Assembly (NCBI RefSeq): GCF_003473485.1
Contig: NC_053044.1
Location: 57,514,091-57,578,090, forward strand
Direction: 5' to 3'
Source: Medicago truncatula
Lineage: Eukaryota; Streptophyta; Magnoliopsida; Fabales; Fabaceae
Length of the DNA stretch: 64,000 nt
The position numbers and the translations under genes are program-made. Of this stretch, positions 11,721 to 61,102 are shown piece after piece; the first letter of the stretch is position 1, and every line of letters begins with the position of its first letter. The notes under the pieces were generated by a model, which searched no databases, was not told the DNA's origin, and saw only the letters and a list, made by a program, of their open reading frames with translations.

Positions 11721-14700
11721 ATGGCAGCACCACCGAACATGGATCAGTTCGAAGCGTTTTTCAGAAGAGCAGATTTAGATGGAGATGGTAGAATCAGTGG
11801 TCCTGAGGCTGTCAATTTCTTTCAAGGATCCAACTTGCCTCAAAACGTTCTTGCTCAGGTACCTTTCTTTCTCTTCCATAATTTCAAATAAAATCAACTT
11901 TACTATAATTGATGTGATTATTTTGAGTTTTAGGTGTAGGATTTTCATAATGGATTATTGTGATTATGTGCTTGTTTGCTTAGAAACTATGATTTAGGTT
12001 TTCTTGTTGTTGATTAGGGATTTTAACTCGATCTAGTGTAATGCTTATTGATCTTGGTATGGATTACAGGTATGGATGCATGCTGATCAGGCCAAAACTG
12101 GTTTCCTTGGGAGGAATGATTTTTATAATGCTTTGAAATTAGTAACTGTTGCACAGAGTAAGCGAGATTTAACTCCGGATATTGTGAAGGCAGCGTTATT
12201 CGGTCCTGCTGCTTCTAAAATCCCTGCACCGCAGATAAACCTTGCTGCTATACCTCCACAGCGTCCGAATCCAGTGGCTTCCTCGTCGGTTGGGCAGATT
12301 GGTGTGACTTCTGGACCAACATCGAGTCAAGGTTATGCTTATAGAGGACAGGGGTTAGCAGGTTCTGTTGGGAACCAGCAATATCTTCCTTCTCAGCAGG
12401 GTGCTAACATGAGACCGCCTCAATCACAGGGGTTCGCAGGTTCTGTTGCGAACCAGCAATATCTACCTTCGCAGCAGAATGTTAACATGAGACCACCTCA
12501 ATCACAGGGGTTATCAGGTCCTATTTCAAACCAGCAATTTCTACCTTTGCAGCAGAATATTAACACGAGACCGCCTCAATCACAGGGGTTAGCAGGTCCT
12601 GTTGGGAACCAGCAGTTTCTACCTTCGCAGCAGAGTCCTACTATGAGACCACCTCAATCACAGGGATTTTCAGGTTTTGTTGCAAATCCACAATATCTTC
12701 CTTCCCAGCAGAATCCAAACATGAGACCAACTCAATCCATGCCAACTGTCAGTGCTCCTGGTCCACAACAATTCATGCCTGCTGGTAACACTCCTCGTCC
12801 ACCTCAGTTGATGCCCTCCGGTACAGCCCCTCGTCCGCAACAGGGTTTTGCAGGTCCCAATCTCTCAAATGCTAACATCTCAAATGATTGGAATGGTGGA
12901 AGGACTGGTATGGCTCCAGCTCAGCCTGCAGGAATCACTCAATCACCTGCCTTATCAACACCAACATCGCCGTCTCTGGTCTCGCCGGTCTCCCAGCCAA
13001 CACCTGTTACCACTAAAGCATTGACTGTGTCTGGAAATGGGTACCCTTCCCGTCCAGTTTTGGGCGACGATTTTTTCTCTACTGCTGCATCCACACCAAA
13101 ACAAGACCCTACTCGACAGAATTATTCTGTTAGCAGTGCACCTGCCTCATCATCCATTGTTCCAGTTTCCAGTAGTGCCAACCCTGCAAGTAGGCAAAGT
13201 TCACTTGATTCATTGCAGAGTGCATTCTCAATGCCACTTACAAATAGCCAGATTCCGCGGACACAGTCTTTACCAAACACAAACCAGCAAATTTCACCAC
13301 CAGCTTCTTCTCCGCTTACCACATCTGGGAGATCGGTTGGACTTGGAAATACTAGTTCCGACAATTCACAGCCTCCGTGGCCAAAAATGAAACCTTTTGA
13401 TGTGCAGAAGTATAGGAAGGTTTTTATGGAAGTTGACACCGACAGGGATGGGAAAATCACTGGGGAGGAGGCACGCACTCTTTTTATAAGTTGGAGATTA
13501 CCAATAGGTAAATTTTTTGCATTCCAACTAACCACTGTTTGATGCAGTCTTTAAGCATTTTGGTATGCTGATGTGATAACTAGTCCATGAAGCATAGAAA
13601 ATAACTACTAATAAAATCAATAATCAGCTGAAGTTTATCGGTTTTAGCTTCGTAAACTCGTTATTTTTCTACTCTTATTCTTTTGTTGACATCCAAAAAC
13701 TGGCTACTGTAACCTGATTCTGAAAATGTTATTGTTTCTGGCAAAATTAATACAAATTTTTTGAATGTAAATTTTTGTAGTCAGATCCTTTTTTATTTTA
13801 AAAATTTACAAGCTCTCGTTTATTTGGAAAGAAGCATATTAGATTCACGTGATTGTCAATAAATAGAAGTAAAATGGAGCATGTGCATGTTCGGCAAGAC
13901 ATACTTGAGTGAAAATTGAAGATCATATACCACAACAAGTCAAATGGTTTAGGTGTATGTTCTGTATATTAATGAAGGGACATGTAAGAAAAGAGAAGAT
14001 GGAGAATGGACAAAGGCTCGCCTCGAATGATTTAGCCATGTGAGGAGAAGATCAATAGAAGCCCTAGAGAGAAGACTTGATGACATACATGATATCCTGA
14101 TAAATAGATATAGAGGAAAACGTGTAAACAAAGAGAAGGTCAAGAATGATTCTATTATAGAAAAAGTATGACTAGCACCTATCAAGGAAAAGTGGACAAA
14201 ATTTTGCCCGAGATGATTTAGTCATGTGAGGAGAAGAAAATAGGAGACCTAGAAAGAAGAACTGATAAGATTGAGGATAGCCCAACAAATAGAGATAGAG
14301 GAAGACCAAGTAACACTTGAAGCATGCATAAAAAAAGACCTATACTTAAAACTTGGATTTTTATAAAACAAAGTGGTGATGTTTGATCTATGTAGTTCAC
14401 TCCACTTATTGTTTTTGTTGTTATAGCTATCATTTGATGATTTTCGTTTATTAGCTCCTTTATACAGGAAAGTCAAGTTTTCACTATCACCTAAATAGAA
14501 TATGGACAAAACTTAGGTGCATTTCCTGAGGCATTGTTTGTGAGTTTGGAGGGGAAGGGAGGGGAGGGTTTTGGAGTAAAGGAAGGAACAGTAGAAAAAA
14601 TAGAGAACATTGGGAAGGGAGGGCTTTCTGGGGTTCATTTTTCTCCATGATACAAAACTCCCCTCACTTGGGGGAACTCAAATTGTATTAGAGGAGGGTT

Positions 14701-20700: not shown

Positions 20701-22568
20701 CACTCATCATTAAATTACTTCTTTAATATAATATGCATGCCTTTCTCGTGGAAGGTTGATAAGGCCAATCTAAATGGCTAATTCATAGATAGGTCAACTT
20801 ATTACTGCAGCAAACTTCTACAAGTGAACGCACTTTCCTGTATTAGTGTATTTCCAATTTTAATCTGGTTGTGTATTAACCTAATGAATTACAAGGTTGG
20901 CAACCCGGTAATCCAGAGGGGGCAGCTGTTTGGGATGAAGATTGGGATAAATTTGAAGATGAAGGTATGCCATATGCACTTTTCTGAATGCCATAATTTG
21001 CTTGATTGATATAACTTGTTTTATTAATTGCTTTTTTTACTTCCAGGATTTGCCAATGATCTCACTTTTGATACGAAAAATGCATCTTCAGAGCCAAAAC
21101 CTTCATTCATTCCCGGAGAACAAAATTCTTTTGATGATAATTCTGTTCATGGTTCACCTGTGAATGCAAATGGTAGGCAAGAAATTTTTACTAATGGTGA
21201 TTATACAGCCGAGGAGGAATCTTATGTACAAAGTGAAGATGACTTGGCACGAAGCCCCCGTGATAGCCCATTTGGAAGGAATGCAGTGGAGAGTCCTTCT
21301 AAGGATTTTTCAACCGCTCACTTTGATAAAGCTTCCGAAGCAGATGCAGAAACACATAGGTAATCTGTTCTCTGTTTTTCTGGTCATGATGGTGTTGGTT
21401 TATGTCTCGTCATCCTTTTTTTTCCTTTTTTCCTTCTGTTTCTGCAATCCGTGGCTTTGAATGTGGTGCATTTAGTAATTGTGATGTTGTTAATCTATGG
21501 TAACAGAAGTTTTGATGAATCAACCTGGGGTGCCTTTGACAATAATGATGATGTGGACTCGGTGTGGGGTTTTAACACCAAGGTAAGACATGTTATGCTC
21601 AGCTTTTACTTTTGTTGTTTTTCTCTTAATCTTGTTATCAACCTAGTTTGTTCTAGTTATTGAGGAAGAAGTTTTATGGAAATTAGTTTTAGATTTTTTT
21701 ACACTGGAATTGATGTAAGACACAATGGGGAACTGTTTCTTTTCCATATTATTTTTGCAATGGGTTTCTTAGCGCAACTACTGAAGAGAGTGTGTGCTAA
21801 TTTCAAAGATCAAGTTAGTTTAATTTCTTGGCACATAAGCCTGCCACATGATTATGCTTTTGTGAAAAAATAATTGAAGTAAAGCTACTAAATTCTTTAT
21901 GTTTGGTTCTGTAGGACTCTGACTTGGATAAGCAGGGAGATTTCTTTAAATCGGGTGATTTTGGTTTAAATCCAGTTAGAACAGGATCTACTGTTACAGA
22001 TGGTGCATTCCATACAAAAAGCCCTTTTGCTTTTGATGATTCAGTGCCTGGAACTCCATTTTCCAAGTTTGGAAACTCTCCAAGGTACAGTGAGGCAGGG
22101 GATCACTTCTTTGAAACGTCAAGGTTCGATTCCTCCTTCAGCATGCATGAAAGTGGAAATTCTCCGCAAGCAGAGAGATTTACGAGATTTGATTCCATTA
22201 GTAGCAGCAGAGATTTTGGCAACAATCAAGAGAAATTTTCAAGGTTTGATTCCATTAGTAGCAGCAAGGATTTTGGCTACAGTCACGAAAAGTTTTCAAG
22301 GTTTGATTCCATAAGCAGCAGCAAAGATTTCGGTTACAATCCTCCTGATACGCTGACAAGGTTTGATTCCATGAGTAGCAGCAAAGATTTTGGCTTCGGT
22401 GGTCAAGGACATGCAAGGTTTGATTCAATTAGTAGCAGCAAGGACTTGGGCTACAGTGCTCCATTCTCTTTTGATGACTCTGATCCATTCGGTTCCTCTG
22501 GCCCATTTAAGGTCACTTCAGATAATCAATCTCCAAAGAAAGGCTCTGATAAGTGGAGTGCGTTCTAG
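11721..22568 (+). CDS. EH1: EH-domain endocytic protein, AtEH1/Pan1 type (TPLATE complex)
   Basis: Thirteen exons: 11721-11858, 12070-13507, 16076-16294, 16379-16581, 17382-17456, 18256-18327, 18406-18504, 19828-19899, 19985-20099, 20896-20964, 21047-21359, 21507-21582, 21915-22568; 1180 aa. The first EH domain (about residues 8-95) has an EF-hand-like loop DLDGDGRISGPE. The second (about 485-585) has DTDRDGKITGEE and WDLSDQDNDSMLSLREF. Between them is a Gln/Pro-rich linker with five 26-residue repeats. A coiled coil covers about 667-810, then an acidic WDEDWDKFEDE motif, then a Ser/Phe-rich tail with repeated RFDSISSSKDFG units. Arabidopsis EH1 and EH2 are subunits of the TPLATE complex, which acts in clathrin-mediated endocytosis at the plasma membrane; EH domains bind NPF-type peptides. 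Large introns hold several transposon pieces but splice borders look intact. Confidence 0.92.
12349..12738 (+). repeat. Five 78-bp tandem repeats inside the EH1 linker
   Basis: Units start at 12349, 12427, 12505, 12583 and 12661, each beginning CAGGG and each exactly 78 bases (26 codons). Each encodes a variant of QGLAGPVGNQQFLPSQQ followed by five or six variable residues and RPPQS (RPTQS in the last unit). Spacing in whole codons keeps the frame open, so repeat number can vary without breaking the protein. Confidence 0.9.
13935..14310 (+). mobile_element. Decayed RTE-type LINE fragments in EH1 intron 2
   Basis: Two neighbouring stretches (about 13935-14090 and 14150-14300) read as worn copies of the RTE LINE 3' coding end: a block like APIKEKW then a SHVRRR-like block, interrupted by stops. 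The same motifs are clearer at 16627-17038. The twofold arrangement suggests a partial duplication of an old fragment. Confidence 0.5.
14502..15070. mobile_element. MITE with a second MITE inserted in it (EH1 intron 2)
   Basis: Outer ends ATGGACAAAACTTAGGTGCA (14502) and its reverse complement (ending about 15070) form perfect inverted repeats. The inverted arms continue inwards at about 14908-14950 and 15011-15050. A second element, about 14528-14897, sits in the left arm. Its own ends are GAGGCATTGTTTGTGAG and CTCCCAAACAAAGCCTT, and GTGCATTTCCT is duplicated on both sides of it. Neither codes for protein. Confidence 0.75.
16627..17038 (+). mobile_element. 5'-truncated RTE-clade LINE with target duplication (EH1 intron 4)
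   Basis: The frame encodes a typical RTE reverse transcriptase tail: LRLMSGKTRRDRI, then GVAPIVEKMVENRLRWFGHV, then RGRGRPRKTIKR. After the stop comes the conserved 3' end GACCCCACTTAGTGGGATAA, then GGCTTGG and a short (GTT)n tail. A 13-base target duplication, TGTAACTCAATTT, borders the insertion at 16614-16626 and 17039-17051. Only the last part of the element was copied. It lies in the sense orientation, about 45 bases past the exon 4 donor. Confidence 0.88.
20351..20695 (+). mobile_element. TRIM-like mini LTR retrotransposon (EH1 intron 9)
   Basis: A first terminal repeat runs from TGTTGGGAAAAACCC (20351) to GGCCCAACA (20473), with the TG...CA ends of an LTR. After it, GATATCAGAGCCTC (about 20487-20500) resembles the primer-binding site for initiator Met tRNA. 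A purine stretch, GGCATGAGGGG, comes before a second, diverged repeat that starts TGTATTGGGGAAAAACCCC at 20564. LTRs of only about 125 bases and a spacer of about 90 bases fit a terminal-repeat retrotransposon in miniature. The right end is worn. Confidence 0.7.
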
Positions 22569-53801: not shown

Positions 53802-56800
53802 CTAACACTCTAATACACCCTTAAGTAAAGTGAGGCTTTCTGCTGATATACTCCTCCTGACTCGAGAAGGAGGTATCTCTATCCTGGAAGGAGGATCTGG
53901 GGAGAAACATACCACGATAACCGTTAAATTATCACATGAGTTACGCTTAAGAGCCTCTCTGACCAACTCTCTCGAACACCTTTGAGGATCATTATGTATC
54001 ATCAACTCTTTTCTTGCCATTGTCACAGCACCTTGGTTACTCATGACATCCCACAGGCCATCACAGCCCATAATCAAGAATTCGTCATCCTCAGTCAAAA
54101 AGATTTCCTGCAACTCTGGCTCGGCACTCAAAGGACAGGCAGAACCCTTGGGACCCTTCATGTGCCAGTCTCCTAAGGCACGTGAAACAGATAATTGGCC
54201 ATTCAAGTATCCATCATATACCACCCCACCAAGTTTTTCAATCCTTAGTCTTTCTGAAATACAATTTGGTTTCTGGTCTTTTGACATCTCAATTGCTCTC
54301 CCTCGCCTTCCCAGTACAGCTCGACAATCCCCCGCATTTGCAATTATCATGTTCCTGTCAATGATGAAATTTCACTAATTTAGGGAGAGAGCTCATAAGA
54401 AATCATGCAACAACAGAGAACACAATCCATATAAGTTTTCTTTCCACAACTTCTCTCTTCCATCTCCAATGAGATGAGACAAAAACACTATCCCAGATTC
54501 TTATGTTTTTCCCGGATAAATTACGGTTGAAGAAGCAAATGCCATTATATTGTTTCCAAACATTGACAGAGCGGCCGTGTTCTAACACCCACTTAAAAAT
54601 AATAGGGATCTAACAAACAACCAATAAAATCTGAAGGCAACTGAAACTTGCTAAAATTAATGAAAAGAATCATGGAATCATAATGCAAGGTCATTACCTC
54701 CCAAATACAAGTGCAGTTAAAGCGGTGGTGCCAGAGGAGATATCAAGCGAGCTGGAATCTGCAAAAGCATAATCAGCTTTCATAAACGCACTTGTAATTG
54801 CCTTCCCCACGCAAGTTGGAAATTGAGAGTCCTCAACAATGAGTCTAAGGATGTTATTTCTTACAAACAAAGCAGCATCGGTTCCTCCATGACCATCAAA
54901 CACCTGAACAATGAGTATGGGTTACTGAACTGTTGGATTTTTTAACATGCAAACAAAAATAAAGGTGGAAACTCATTGTATGAGCAACAAATTTCAATCC
55001 ATTGTTATCTAACAGGTTCAACATGTGAATGTAAATATGAAGCTTTATATCATAGCAAATGTATATAAACTGTAATCTCGAGTAAGAATAACATACGAAC
55101 CCCATAGAAAGCTCCAGGAAAAGGAACATTTGAAGCAGAACCTATGTGTTGAGTAAGATCATCCATACGTACGTGTTCATCTTCCATATATTGTTTAGGC
55201 CCTCTTTCAGCACAACTTCCTGATCGAAATATCGGAACAAAATCTGGCTTGTTTTCAGAAGATGACTTACTTCCAGTAACCTCTGCATCCACACTCTTAA
55301 AAAAGAGAGAGAAACATACAAATCAGATAACCTAAGCTTTACAACGAATATGACAAGATAGGAAGTCAAGTATAAAGTATTAGTAAAAATTGGTAAGAAT
55401 TGAAATGAAGTTCACAGCATTTATGTCTGTATTGATAGCGCAGAAAATCAGAAGCGGAAGCTTTGTTCAGAAGCAGTTGTTCAGAAGCACTGTTCAGAAG
55501 CACTGTTCAGAAGCAGTTCAGAAGCACTGTTCAGAAGCAGTTCAGAAGCACTGTTCAGAAGCAGTTCAGAAGCAGTTTCTGATTCTAAGGATTTATGCGA
55601 ATTAGAGAGAGAATTGAGAGAGAAGAAAATTGTGATGAAAATTGTAAATGATCTTTATTGATTCTATATCATGAATGTACAAGATAATGGTCTTATATAC
55701 AAGTCTAAACGTTGCTTGAAGCACAAGCAATGTAACAAACTCTAACAACCTTATTTGCTAACCTCTAACAAACTTGTAACAAACTTCATAACAAACTAAA
55801 ACAAACTTGTGATTAACCACTGATTGTGATTATCACTGAAACTAAACTTGAATTAAAACAAACTAACATCCTCCCTTAATTCAAGTTTCCACTTCCTTCA
55901 TTCCAATCAAACTTCTGAGCTTGATGAATCTGTCAACCTTCAATGCCTTAGTGAATATGTCTGCAAGCTGCAGCTCAGTAGAACAATGAACAATCTGTAG
56001 TGCTCCCTTGTTCACTTGCTCCCTCAGAAAATGAAACTTTGCTTCTATGTGCTTGCTTCTTCCATGCAGAACTGGATTTCTTGCTAAGCTTATAGCAGAT
56101 TTGTTGTCTATGAGCAATTCTATAGGTCTGCTAACCTCTATCTCCATCTCCTTAAGTATATTTTCAAGCCATATTGCCTGACATGCTGCCATACACCCTG
56201 CAATATACTCAGATTCACAGGTTGACAATGCTACAACTGGTTGCTTCTTAGCACACCATGAAATTGGAGCATTCATAAACTTGAATAGGTACCCTGAAGT
56301 GCTCTTTCTATCTTGTCTGTCTCCACACCAATCAGCATCAGAATATGCTGTCAGCTCAATAGTGTTTTCATTTAAGCACTTAGGAAATAAAATGCCATAC
56401 TGCAGTGTTCCTTTGATGTATCTCATCACTCTTTTGGCTGCTAGCAGGTGAGATACTCTTGGTTCACTCATGAATCTACTGATTATGCCAACTGCATATG
56501 CAATATCAGGCCTACTATTGCATAGATACCTCAGTGAACCAACAATTTGCTTGAACAATGTAGGATTCACAGGTTCTTCATCTTCATTCATCACCAGTTT
56601 TACATTTGTCTCAGCTGGTGATGATGATGGATTGCAGCTCATCATATTGAACCTCTTCAATATATCAGATGCATACTTCTTTTGATGCATCACCAATCCC
56701 TCTGCAACTTCAGTAAATTCCATGCCTAGAAAGTATGTCAATTTTCCTAAATCTGACATTTCAAACTCACTCATCATCTGTGATTTGAATGCTTCTATCT

Positions 56801-59800
56801 CATTCATATCACTACCAGTCACTATCAAATCATCAACATAAAGACAGATGAGTAGTTGATTACCTTCACTTCCTTTCTTCACATATACACCATACTCAGA
56901 CTTGCATTTAACAAATTCTTGCTTCACAAGAAAGCTGTCAATTCTCTTGTTCCAAGCTCTTGGTGCCTGTTTCAATCCATAGAGAGCTTTGTGTAATCTG
57001 TACACCATATCCTCTTTCCCTTTGATTTTGAAACCTGGTGGCTGTGTCACATACACTTCTTCATCTAAAGGACCATTTAGAAAAGCAGATTTTACATCCA
57101 AATGATGCATTGGCCAGTTTCTTCCACAAGCTATAGCAACTATCAATCTCACAGTTTCCAATCTAGCAACTGGAGCATATACTTCAAAGTAATCCATACC
57201 AGCCTTCTGCATGAATCCCCTAGCCACTAATCTTGCTTTGTACTTGGCTACTTCACCATTTGGCTTCAGTTTCAATTTGAAAACCCACTTCACATCTATT
57301 GGTTTCTTACTAGCAGGCAGTTCAATCAACTTCCATGTGTTGTTTCTGTTGATTGAATTCAACTCCTCAATCATAGCATTCTTCCATACATCTTCATTCA
57401 ATGCTGCTTCATAATTGATTGGTTCTGCATCTGCTAATAGTGCAAAATGAACAAATTCCCCTTCTTCATTAACTACATTATCTGGAATGACTTCATGTCC
57501 AGCTAATCTAGTTGAAGCAAATCTCTGTCTAACTGAAGTTCTTGTGACTTGATTCTCTTCAACATGCACTTCAGGTTGAACTTCAGTATCAAGTTGAACT
57601 TGTTCAACTTGATCATCATCTTCAATTATTGTGGGAATTGTGTGACTGGAACTCTTCTCTTTCTTAGTCCAATCCCATGCTTCATTTTCACAGATTTTTA
57701 CATCTCTACTAATCACTATAGAATGATTCAGAGGATGATACAATCTGTATGCACCTGTCTCATGATAGCCAACCAGTATCATAGGTTCACTCTTATCCCC
57801 CAACTTCCTTCTCTTTGCATCAGGGATATGCATATAGCACAATGAACCAAACACTCTTAAGTGTTTTGCTGACTGCTTGCATCCTAACCAAATTTCTTCA
57901 GGAATTTGATTAAGTTTCTTAGTGGGACATCTGTTTAAGATGTATGCTGCAGTTCTTACTGCTTCTCCCCAAAATGTATTAGGCATCTTCTTCATCTTTA
58001 GCATACTTCTGGTCATGTCAAGCAGGCTTCTATTCCTTCTTTCAGCCAAACCATTGTGTTGTGGAGTATAAAGAGCAGTGACTTCATGTACAATGCCATT
58101 GTCTTCACAAAACTTCTCAAACACCTTTGAGGTATACTCTCCACCACCATCAGTTCTTAAAATCTTAATGGATTTACCACTCTGTTTTTCAACTAAGATT
58201 TTAAACTTCTGGAACATATCAAATGCTTCACTTTTGGCCTTGATCAAATATAACCAGAGTTTTCTGCTAAACTCATCAACAAAACTGATGAAATATTTGT
58301 TTCCTCCTAATGAAGGAACCTCTAAAGGACCACACACATCTGAATATACAACATTAAGCAGCTCCTTTGATCTACTTGCTGAACTTGAACTGAATGCACT
58401 TCTTGGTTGCTTTCCCAACAAGCAAGTACCACAGACTGTGTTAGGTATCTCAATTTTAGGAACTCCCAGAATCATTTCTTTATCAACCAATTGATTAAGA
58501 CCTCTAAAATTGAGATGACCAAATCTATAGTGCCATAACCAACTATCTTCATCTTTTACCATAGCAGATAAACAGTTCAGTTCTACAGCTTTCATATTGG
58601 TCTGAAAAGTTCTATTCTTTGCAAGAGGAGTTTTCAAAACTAACCTTTGATGATTATCAAACAACTTAAAGGTGTTGTCCTTCATAGTAACTGAGTATCC
58701 TTTCTGAATGAACTGACCTACACTCAGCAAATTGCACTGCATTCCAGGAACATAGAGAACTTCTTCAATTATTGCCACTTTCCCATTCTTTCCTTCAATA
58801 GCAATATTCCCCATTCCTTCTGCAACCAAGACTCTATGATCTGCAAGCTTCACCTTTGTATTTCTTCCAGGATCCACTTTTCTTAACCATGTCTTGTTTC
58901 CTGTCATGTGATTAGAACAACCAGTATCTAAGAACCAACTTTCTGAATTGCAGCTCTCATTACTAGTTGTTGTAACCATCATGAATAATGATTCAGAATC
59001 TGAATCATCTTGTGCAATTTTGGCTTCCTCTTCATCATTTTTTGATTGCTTTCCTTTACCAGACCAGCATTCAGAGGCATAGTGTCCAAATTTCTCACAT
59101 TTGAAACACTGAATCTTCTTCTTATCAACTTTCTTCTTTTGATTAGAATTTCCTTCCTTTGAAGATTCACCTTTATCAGATCCATTGTTCTTGCCTTTAG
59201 ACCAGTTTCCTCCCTTAGAGTTTTTCTTCCCTTTCTTGAAGTTCTTCCTATCATAATCATCCTTCTTGATAGTTTGAACTTGCAGGGCTTGTTGAATTGA
59301 TCTTTCATTGCTTCTTTCTGAAACCATCAATTCATGAGCTTCTAATGAACTCTGCAACTCCTCAATCTTCAATGTCTTAACATCTTTTGATTCCTGAATT
59401 GCCACCACAATGAAATCAAACCTTGAAGATAGGGTCCTCATAATCTTTTCAACTATCTGTTGATCAGTGATAGCTTCACTACAAGCCTTCATCTGATTCA
59501 CAAGATTGATGAGTTTAGAGATGTACTCAGAAATCTTTTGATCATCTTCCATTTGCATCAGCTCAAATTTCCTTCTCAGAGATTGAAGCTTAATCAACTT
59601 CACTTTATCATCACCTTCATGATACTTTGAAAGAATGTCCCATGCTTCCTTTGAACTCAGTGATTTTGAGATTCTTTCAAAGTTTCCTTCATCAAGACTT
59701 TGTTGAATCAAGAACAGAGCCTTGCAATCTTTTTTCTTCAATTCCTTATGTGCGTTCCTTTGCACCTCAGTAGCATTCGCAGCTAATTCATGTACACCAT

Positions 59801-61102
59801 CCTGCACAATTTCCAACAGGTCTTGTGCTCCAAACAGATTCTTCATCACCGCACTCCATCTTTCCCAATTGCGTGCTTCAAGAATTGGAAGATGTGTGTT
59901 GAAACTGCTGCTACCATTCATGGTGATTCCTTCAGCGTTTCTTTCTACAAATTGCGTGATTGAAGATCTTGATTACCCCTTAGAACGAAACCAAAGGCTC
60001 TAGATGCCAATTTGATAGCGCAGAAAATCAGAAGCGGAAGCTTTGTTCAGAAGCAGTTGTTCAGAAGCACTGTTCAGAAGCACTGTTCAGAAGCAGTTCA
60101 GAAGCACTGTTCAGAAGCAGTTCAGAAGCACTGTTCAGAAGCAGTTCAGAAGCAGTTTCTGATTCTAAGGATTTATGCGAATTAGAGAGAGAATTGAGAG
60201 AGAAGAAAATTGTGATGAAAATTGTAAATGATCTTTATTGATTCTATATCATGAATGTACAAGATAATGGTCTTATATACAAGTCTAAACGTTGCTTGAA
60301 GCACAAGCAATGTAACAAACTCTAACAACCTTATTTGCTAACCTCTAACAAACTTGTAACAAACTTCATAACAAACTAAAACAAACTTGTGATTAACCAC
60401 TGATTGTGATTATCACTGAAACTAAACTTGAATTAAAACAAACTAACATGTATCAGTTTAGCAAGGTGAATTATGAAGACTAACAAGAGCATTAAAGCGT
60501 ACTAAAAAAAACTAACAAAAGTATCTTGCTAACGTAATCTAAATTCTAAATATTGGTTAATGAATCGATAAAAGGAAATTGTATCTTAACAATACAAAGT
60601 TAATGTAATAAACACATCATTTTCCATACAAACTTGCCTTTTTTTATTCCTCAACCAATGTGGAACTTGTTACTTGGTAGCATTTTCTTTGTAATAAAAA
60701 CATAAAACTAAAATTATCTGAAAATTATAGCAAGCAAAGCAACAAAAGAAATTAATACAAAGTAAGAACAACTAGGACACAAAACATGACATGAACCAAA
60801 ATGTCAAAATATATAATTACTATAAAAAAAATATTACAAAAAAAAATCAAACTTTATGAAAAAGTTGAATAACATACCAAATCTGATGCAGCCAGTTTCA
60901 ATCTATTGGAGCTAAGGCTATGTCTCAAACTGGAAGCATGCCTTGGAGGTTTACCAATTGTGGTTGGTTTAAGATTATTGAAATCTCCTAATTTGTCATC
61001 ATCATTATCATTGTCTTTGTTGTAATCATCGCCTTCTAATCTTGTAATTGGAGGAGAATAATCCATATCCACATGCATAACAATCTTCTCCAAATCATAC
61101 AT
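53802..61102 (-). CDS. Protein phosphatase 2C (PP2C), intron split by a Copia element
   Basis: Four coding exons on the minus strand: 61102-60878, 55295-55101, 54903-54698 and 54354-53802, with matching phases, giving 392 aa. The catalytic PP2C domain covers about 90-365: [20 protein letters not shown] (142-147), DCRAVLG (218-224), [17 protein letters not shown] (305-311) and [11 protein letters not shown] (347-357). The acidic residues that hold the two metal ions are present, so the enzyme should be an active Ser/Thr phosphatase. It resembles the DBP1/PP2CG1-type group of Arabidopsis; the exact orthologue is not settled. The N terminus (exon 1) is acidic, then basic ([15 protein letters not shown]). 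Intron 1 is 5.6 kb, nearly all of it a Copia retrotransposon in the same orientation, which may affect splicing or supply a poly(A) site. Confidence 0.88.
55433..55868 (-). repeat. 3' LTR of the Copia element
   Basis: 436 bases, same as the 5' copy. In sense orientation it carries a TATA-like GTATATAAG (complement of 55691-55699), an AATAAAG poly(A)-type signal further on, and a block of short tandem repeats near its end (55466-55578). Confidence 0.9.
55881..59921 (-). CDS. Copia gag-pol polyprotein
   Basis: An uninterrupted frame of 1346 aa inside the retrotransposon. Order, with rough positions: gag of the UBN2 type (1-210); CCHC zinc knuckle with C272, C275, H280, C285; aspartic protease with LDTG (331-334); integrase with an HHCC-like region and an acidic core (about 460-700, including [10 protein letters not shown]); reverse transcriptase (about 840-1090) with the YVDD centre; RNase H (about 1170-1310) with SDADWCGD and STCESEYIA. 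Integrase before reverse transcriptase defines Ty1/Copia. The length is usual for plant Copia. No stop or frameshift was seen, so the protein is likely functional. The first ATG is 92 bases inside the 5' LTR border. Confidence 0.95.
60013..60448 (-). repeat. 5' LTR of the Copia element
   Basis: 436 bases. As the upstream LTR it should hold the promoter: on the minus strand a TATA-like GTATATAAG (complement of 60271-60279) lies about 180 bases after the start. The block of TTCAGAAGCA repeats (plus-strand reading, 60046-60158) lies close to the primer-site end. Confidence 0.9.

Follow-up and report, generated by a model that had tools for sequence, protein, structure and literature searches.

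A structurally complete Ty1/Copia retrotransposon, recent in its integration and possibly autonomous, very probably occupies the first intron of a predicted PP2C phosphatase gene, having inserted in the sense orientation of the gene into an intron that was already present and measured about 561 bp. Sequence analysis of the 64-kb window (the whole stretch of DNA under study) placed this LTR retrotransposon, of a type common in plants, at 55433-60448 on the minus strand, where it spans 5016 bp. The features of the gene and the element are as follows, in the order in which the minus strand is read.

60878..61102, minus strand: PP2C exon 1, codons 1-75 (predicted from frame, splice donor and G+C)
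60449..60453, minus strand: target-site duplication on the 5' side of the element, ATACA on the minus strand and TGTAT on the plus strand
60013..60448, minus strand: 5' LTR, 436 bp, TG...CA, with TATATAA from 60279, AATAAA from 60239 and 13/24-bp tandem repeats at 60044-60154
59990..60012, minus strand: primer-binding-site region, TTGGCATCTAGAGCC, an imperfect match to the complement of plant initiator tRNA-Met
55881..59921, minus strand: gag-pol ORF, 1346 aa, with gag, CCHC, protease, integrase, RT and RNase H motifs
55869..55879, minus strand: polypurine tract, TTAAGGGAGGA, immediately upstream of the 3' LTR
55433..55868, minus strand: 3' LTR, 436 bp, same sequence as the 5' LTR (LTR alignment)
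55428..55432, minus strand: target-site duplication on the 3' side of the element, an exact copy of the 5' side
55101..55295, minus strand: PP2C exon 2, containing the RxxxxxED motif
54698..54903, minus strand: PP2C exon 3 (predicted splicing)
53802..54354, minus strand: PP2C exon 4, to the stop codon (predicted splicing)

Structure and age of the element

Base-by-base alignment of the two LTRs revealed no differences (0/436), and both LTRs have TG...CA ends. The target duplication is exact at both flanks of the element, a 5-bp match that would be expected by chance with P of about 0.004 at local base composition. Between the LTRs lies a 4144-bp interior with one ORF, the sole stop of which is the terminal one. 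Self-comparison of the 64-kb window found no further copy of the LTR or the interior elsewhere, all other matches falling within the element.

We then characterized the polyprotein, which matched six Pfam families with E-values from 2.4e-13 to 7.8e-91: Copia-type gag (PF14223, E 4.5e-28), gag-pre-integrase, integrase core, the Pol beta-barrel domain, an SH3-like domain and RVT_2 (PF07727, E 7.8e-91). Searching for the motifs expected of such an element, we found a gag CCHC zinc knuckle, protease LDTG, RT YVDD and RNase H-type motifs, together with the integrase motifs HX4H and CX2C (HHCC) and D-62-D-35-E (DD35E). Gag occupies residues 26-202, LDTG lies at residue 331, the integrase core at 526-620 and RT at 860-1103, and the RNase H-type motifs begin at 1195; this gives the order gag, PR, IN, RT, RH, with integrase preceding RT as in Ty1/Copia. 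Assignment of RNase H rests on motifs because no RNase H model was among the six matching families. Judged by domain order and content, the element is a member of the Ty1/Copia superfamily, the level to which we assign it; lineages within Copia include Tork, Ale and SIRE. A pattern scan of viral contigs with the RT stretch of the element gave no match, and a viral-contig scan with its integrase stretch gave 10 pattern matches, 0 of which were confirmed, so that neither scan yielded a relative. At E 0.001, no solved structure matched the RT stretch.

The primer-binding-site region differs from the complement of the 3' end of plant initiator tRNA-Met by 1 substitution and 1 insertion in the first 14 bases. 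So imperfect a site is odd for an element that was necessarily reverse-transcribed recently. No tRNA genes were detected by ARAGORN in the 64-kb window for comparison with this site. Each LTR also carries a tandem array with a 13/24-bp unit (60044-60154 and 55464-55574; 4.5 copies when counted with the 24-bp period, at 95% matches), which lies downstream of the likely transcription start and so would sit in the transcribed leader. Two other repeats were observed in the window: a 78-bp repeat, its length divisible by three, in five copies at 12348-12737 within a long and seemingly Q/P/S-rich ORF at 12076-13542, and a tandem 57-bp repeat of 4.9 copies at 22172-22455, encoding repeated RFDSISSSKDFGY-like units in an ORF at 21924-22568.

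With 0/436 LTR differences, assumed rates of 1.3e-8, 7e-9 and 5.2e-9 substitutions per site per year give 95% upper bounds on insertion age of about 264,000 years, 491,000 years and 661,000 years, respectively, such that LTR identity bounds the age only loosely, at 0.26-0.66 million years depending on the assumed rate. A single sequence is by itself compatible with an old element in which gene conversion or assembly collapse erased the differences between the LTRs. However, the 1346-codon ORF and the target-site duplication are likewise undamaged, and we regard an old insertion as highly improbable. An earlier note on this DNA had described a young, seemingly intact Copia element with two LTRs that look identical, an exact TGTAT duplication and a 1346-aa polyprotein with every catalytic motif. 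Our data confirm the LTR identity and the duplication, and bear out the claim about motifs for those that were looked for, RNase H by motifs only. Identical LTRs, an exact duplication, an open ORF and catalytic motifs together support the word intact and point to a structurally complete, possibly autonomous copy, and the lack of LTR differences supports the word young while giving only an upper bound on age.

The host phosphatase gene

The four predicted PP2C exons join into a 392-aa protein without an internal stop, across introns that begin with GT and end with AG. This protein matched the Pfam PP2C family (E 1e-71) and, at E 0.001, 63 distinct solved-structure sequences, the best among the matches listed being a chain named PPM1B beta isoform (5.1e-36). 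All seven phosphatase motif strings looked for were present, including RxxxxxED, DGHGG, GD, DG and DN. The Pfam match begins at residue 100 and is therefore no test of exon 1, the prediction of which is supported by its reading frame, its splice donor and a G+C content of 36%, compared to 25% and 29% in the native parts of the intron.

Intron 1 (GT...AG, phase 0) measures 5582 bp between the end of exon 1 at 60878 and the start of exon 2 at 55295, and subtraction of the element and one target-site duplication leaves 561 bp (5582 - 5016 - 5). Predicted splicing runs as the earlier note had it, with the Copia element inside the first intron and the 392-aa frame open across the predicted exons, and element and gene do share an orientation, both lying on the minus strand.

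Predicted effects on phosphatase transcripts

On the sense strand, the LTR contains TATATAA at 60279 followed by AATAAA 40 bases downstream at 60239. For comparison, we took the part of that strand lying outside the element as 1163 stretches, each of 436 bases; these overlap and are therefore not independent. AATAAA occurs in 577 of the 1163 and TATATAA in 98 (counts derived from fractions), while a pair in similar spacing occurs in 7. Given that so many stretches outside the element have an AATAAA, this hexamer alone is weak evidence, and the native part of intron 1 already has one at 60648; the TATATAA/AATAAA pair is somewhat better evidence. A working retrotransposon copy requires a functional poly(A) region in its 3' LTR, and the identity of the 5' LTR to the 3' LTR was counted toward polyadenylation in the former. 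That the LTR poly(A) signal ends PP2C transcripts early, as the earlier note proposed, is plausible, with the TATATAA/AATAAA pair in the sense LTR and with RPP7/COPIA-R7, compared below, as a published counterpart. Most PP2C pre-mRNA would have the 5.6-kb intron 1 spliced out, and some of it may undergo cleavage and polyadenylation within the 5' LTR, producing a short exon-1 RNA whose ORF would, by our computation, have 82 codons and lack the catalytic domain. The silencing marks that the element carries would set the balance between spliced and 5' LTR-ended RNA, in line with RPP7/COPIA-R7.

The promoter of the LTR may also act on the gene from the downstream side. The 3' LTR has its own TATATAA at 55699, which places it 404 bases upstream of exon 2, and a new RNA starting there is possible. 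With its start assumed near 55668, however, such an RNA would first present ORFs of 2 codons, 6 codons and, out of frame, 48 codons. Only after these comes the earliest in-frame start codon, Met112, within the catalytic RxxxxxED motif and past its Arg106. Because of these preceding ORFs and the position of Met112 downstream of Arg106, a working phosphatase from this RNA is unlikely. We therefore rejected the 3' LTR as a new promoter for a functional shorter phosphatase, an outcome to which we give very little credence.

An intronic Copia element in a plant gene is a well-known and well-described situation, and early polyadenylation in the 5' LTR is best judged against published cases. In Arabidopsis, RPP7 has exon-1 (ECL) transcripts that end in the 5' LTR of the intronic COPIA-R7, a termination that EDM2 suppresses with H3K9me2 (PMC7529245). 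That system resembles ours in that a Copia element sits in the host gene's first intron, and its own feature is that host transcripts reach the 5' LTR poly(A) site and yield LTR-ended exon-1 RNA, which in PP2C is only predicted; the host there is an NLR rather than a PP2C, and the effect was measured there and is predicted here (PMC7529245). Soybean RAC is an intact Copia element in intron 1 of rhg1-a alpha-SNAP that is of similar size (4.77 kb, with a 1438-residue polyprotein), is thought relatively recent and has its own promoter activity (PMC6712407). RAC is apparently spliced out, and no overt effect on alpha-SNAP mRNA or protein abundance was detected; in contrast to the present element, which is sense to PP2C, RAC is antisense to its host gene (PMC6712407).

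A survey of Arabidopsis intragenic TEs counted 206 intronic and 35 exonic insertions and reports more premature polyadenylation in selected genes with intronic TEs when silencing fails (PMC4417168). Those TEs share with ours a position inside a gene intron, but they come from another species and, in the portion available, are not separated by Copia status or orientation (PMC4417168). In a further study, LTR/Copia elements show a slight but significant over-representation among alternative last exons derived from TEs (PMC10241880). Among the titles and abstract beginnings listed from the literature on Copia, intron, PP2C and LTR insertions, no title concerned such a PP2C insertion, which is not proof of absence.

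These cases point in two directions. The intact PP2C coding sequence and splice ends, together with the RAC precedent without overt host effect, suggest a neutral outcome in which the intron is spliced normally, the element is silenced and PP2C is not measurably affected. We consider this outcome slightly more probable than not, although the element is sense-oriented, unlike RAC, and the RPP7/COPIA-R7 precedent is one of termination in the 5' LTR. That precedent and the other published accounts (PMC7529245, PMC4417168, PMC10241880), along with the TATATAA/AATAAA arrangement in the sense LTR, are instead consistent with an active outcome in which 5' LTR polyadenylation lowers PP2C expression or switches it conditionally, tuned by element silencing or stress. 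We put this outcome forward tentatively and with some doubt, since a hexamer such as AATAAA says little in DNA so rich in A and T. A stronger form appears unlikely to us: a polymorphic insertion, still mobile, that acts as a silencing-dependent switch, such that relaxed marks on the element would cause PP2C RNA to end in the 5' LTR, leading to less phosphatase and altered stress signalling.

What the insertion means biologically depends on whether it is polymorphic. If it is not, it would be an ordinary feature of a plant genome. If it is, it would provide a clean with/without comparison of the effect of a sense-oriented intronic LTR on a phosphatase gene, and would also mark a retrotransposon family that has lately been active.
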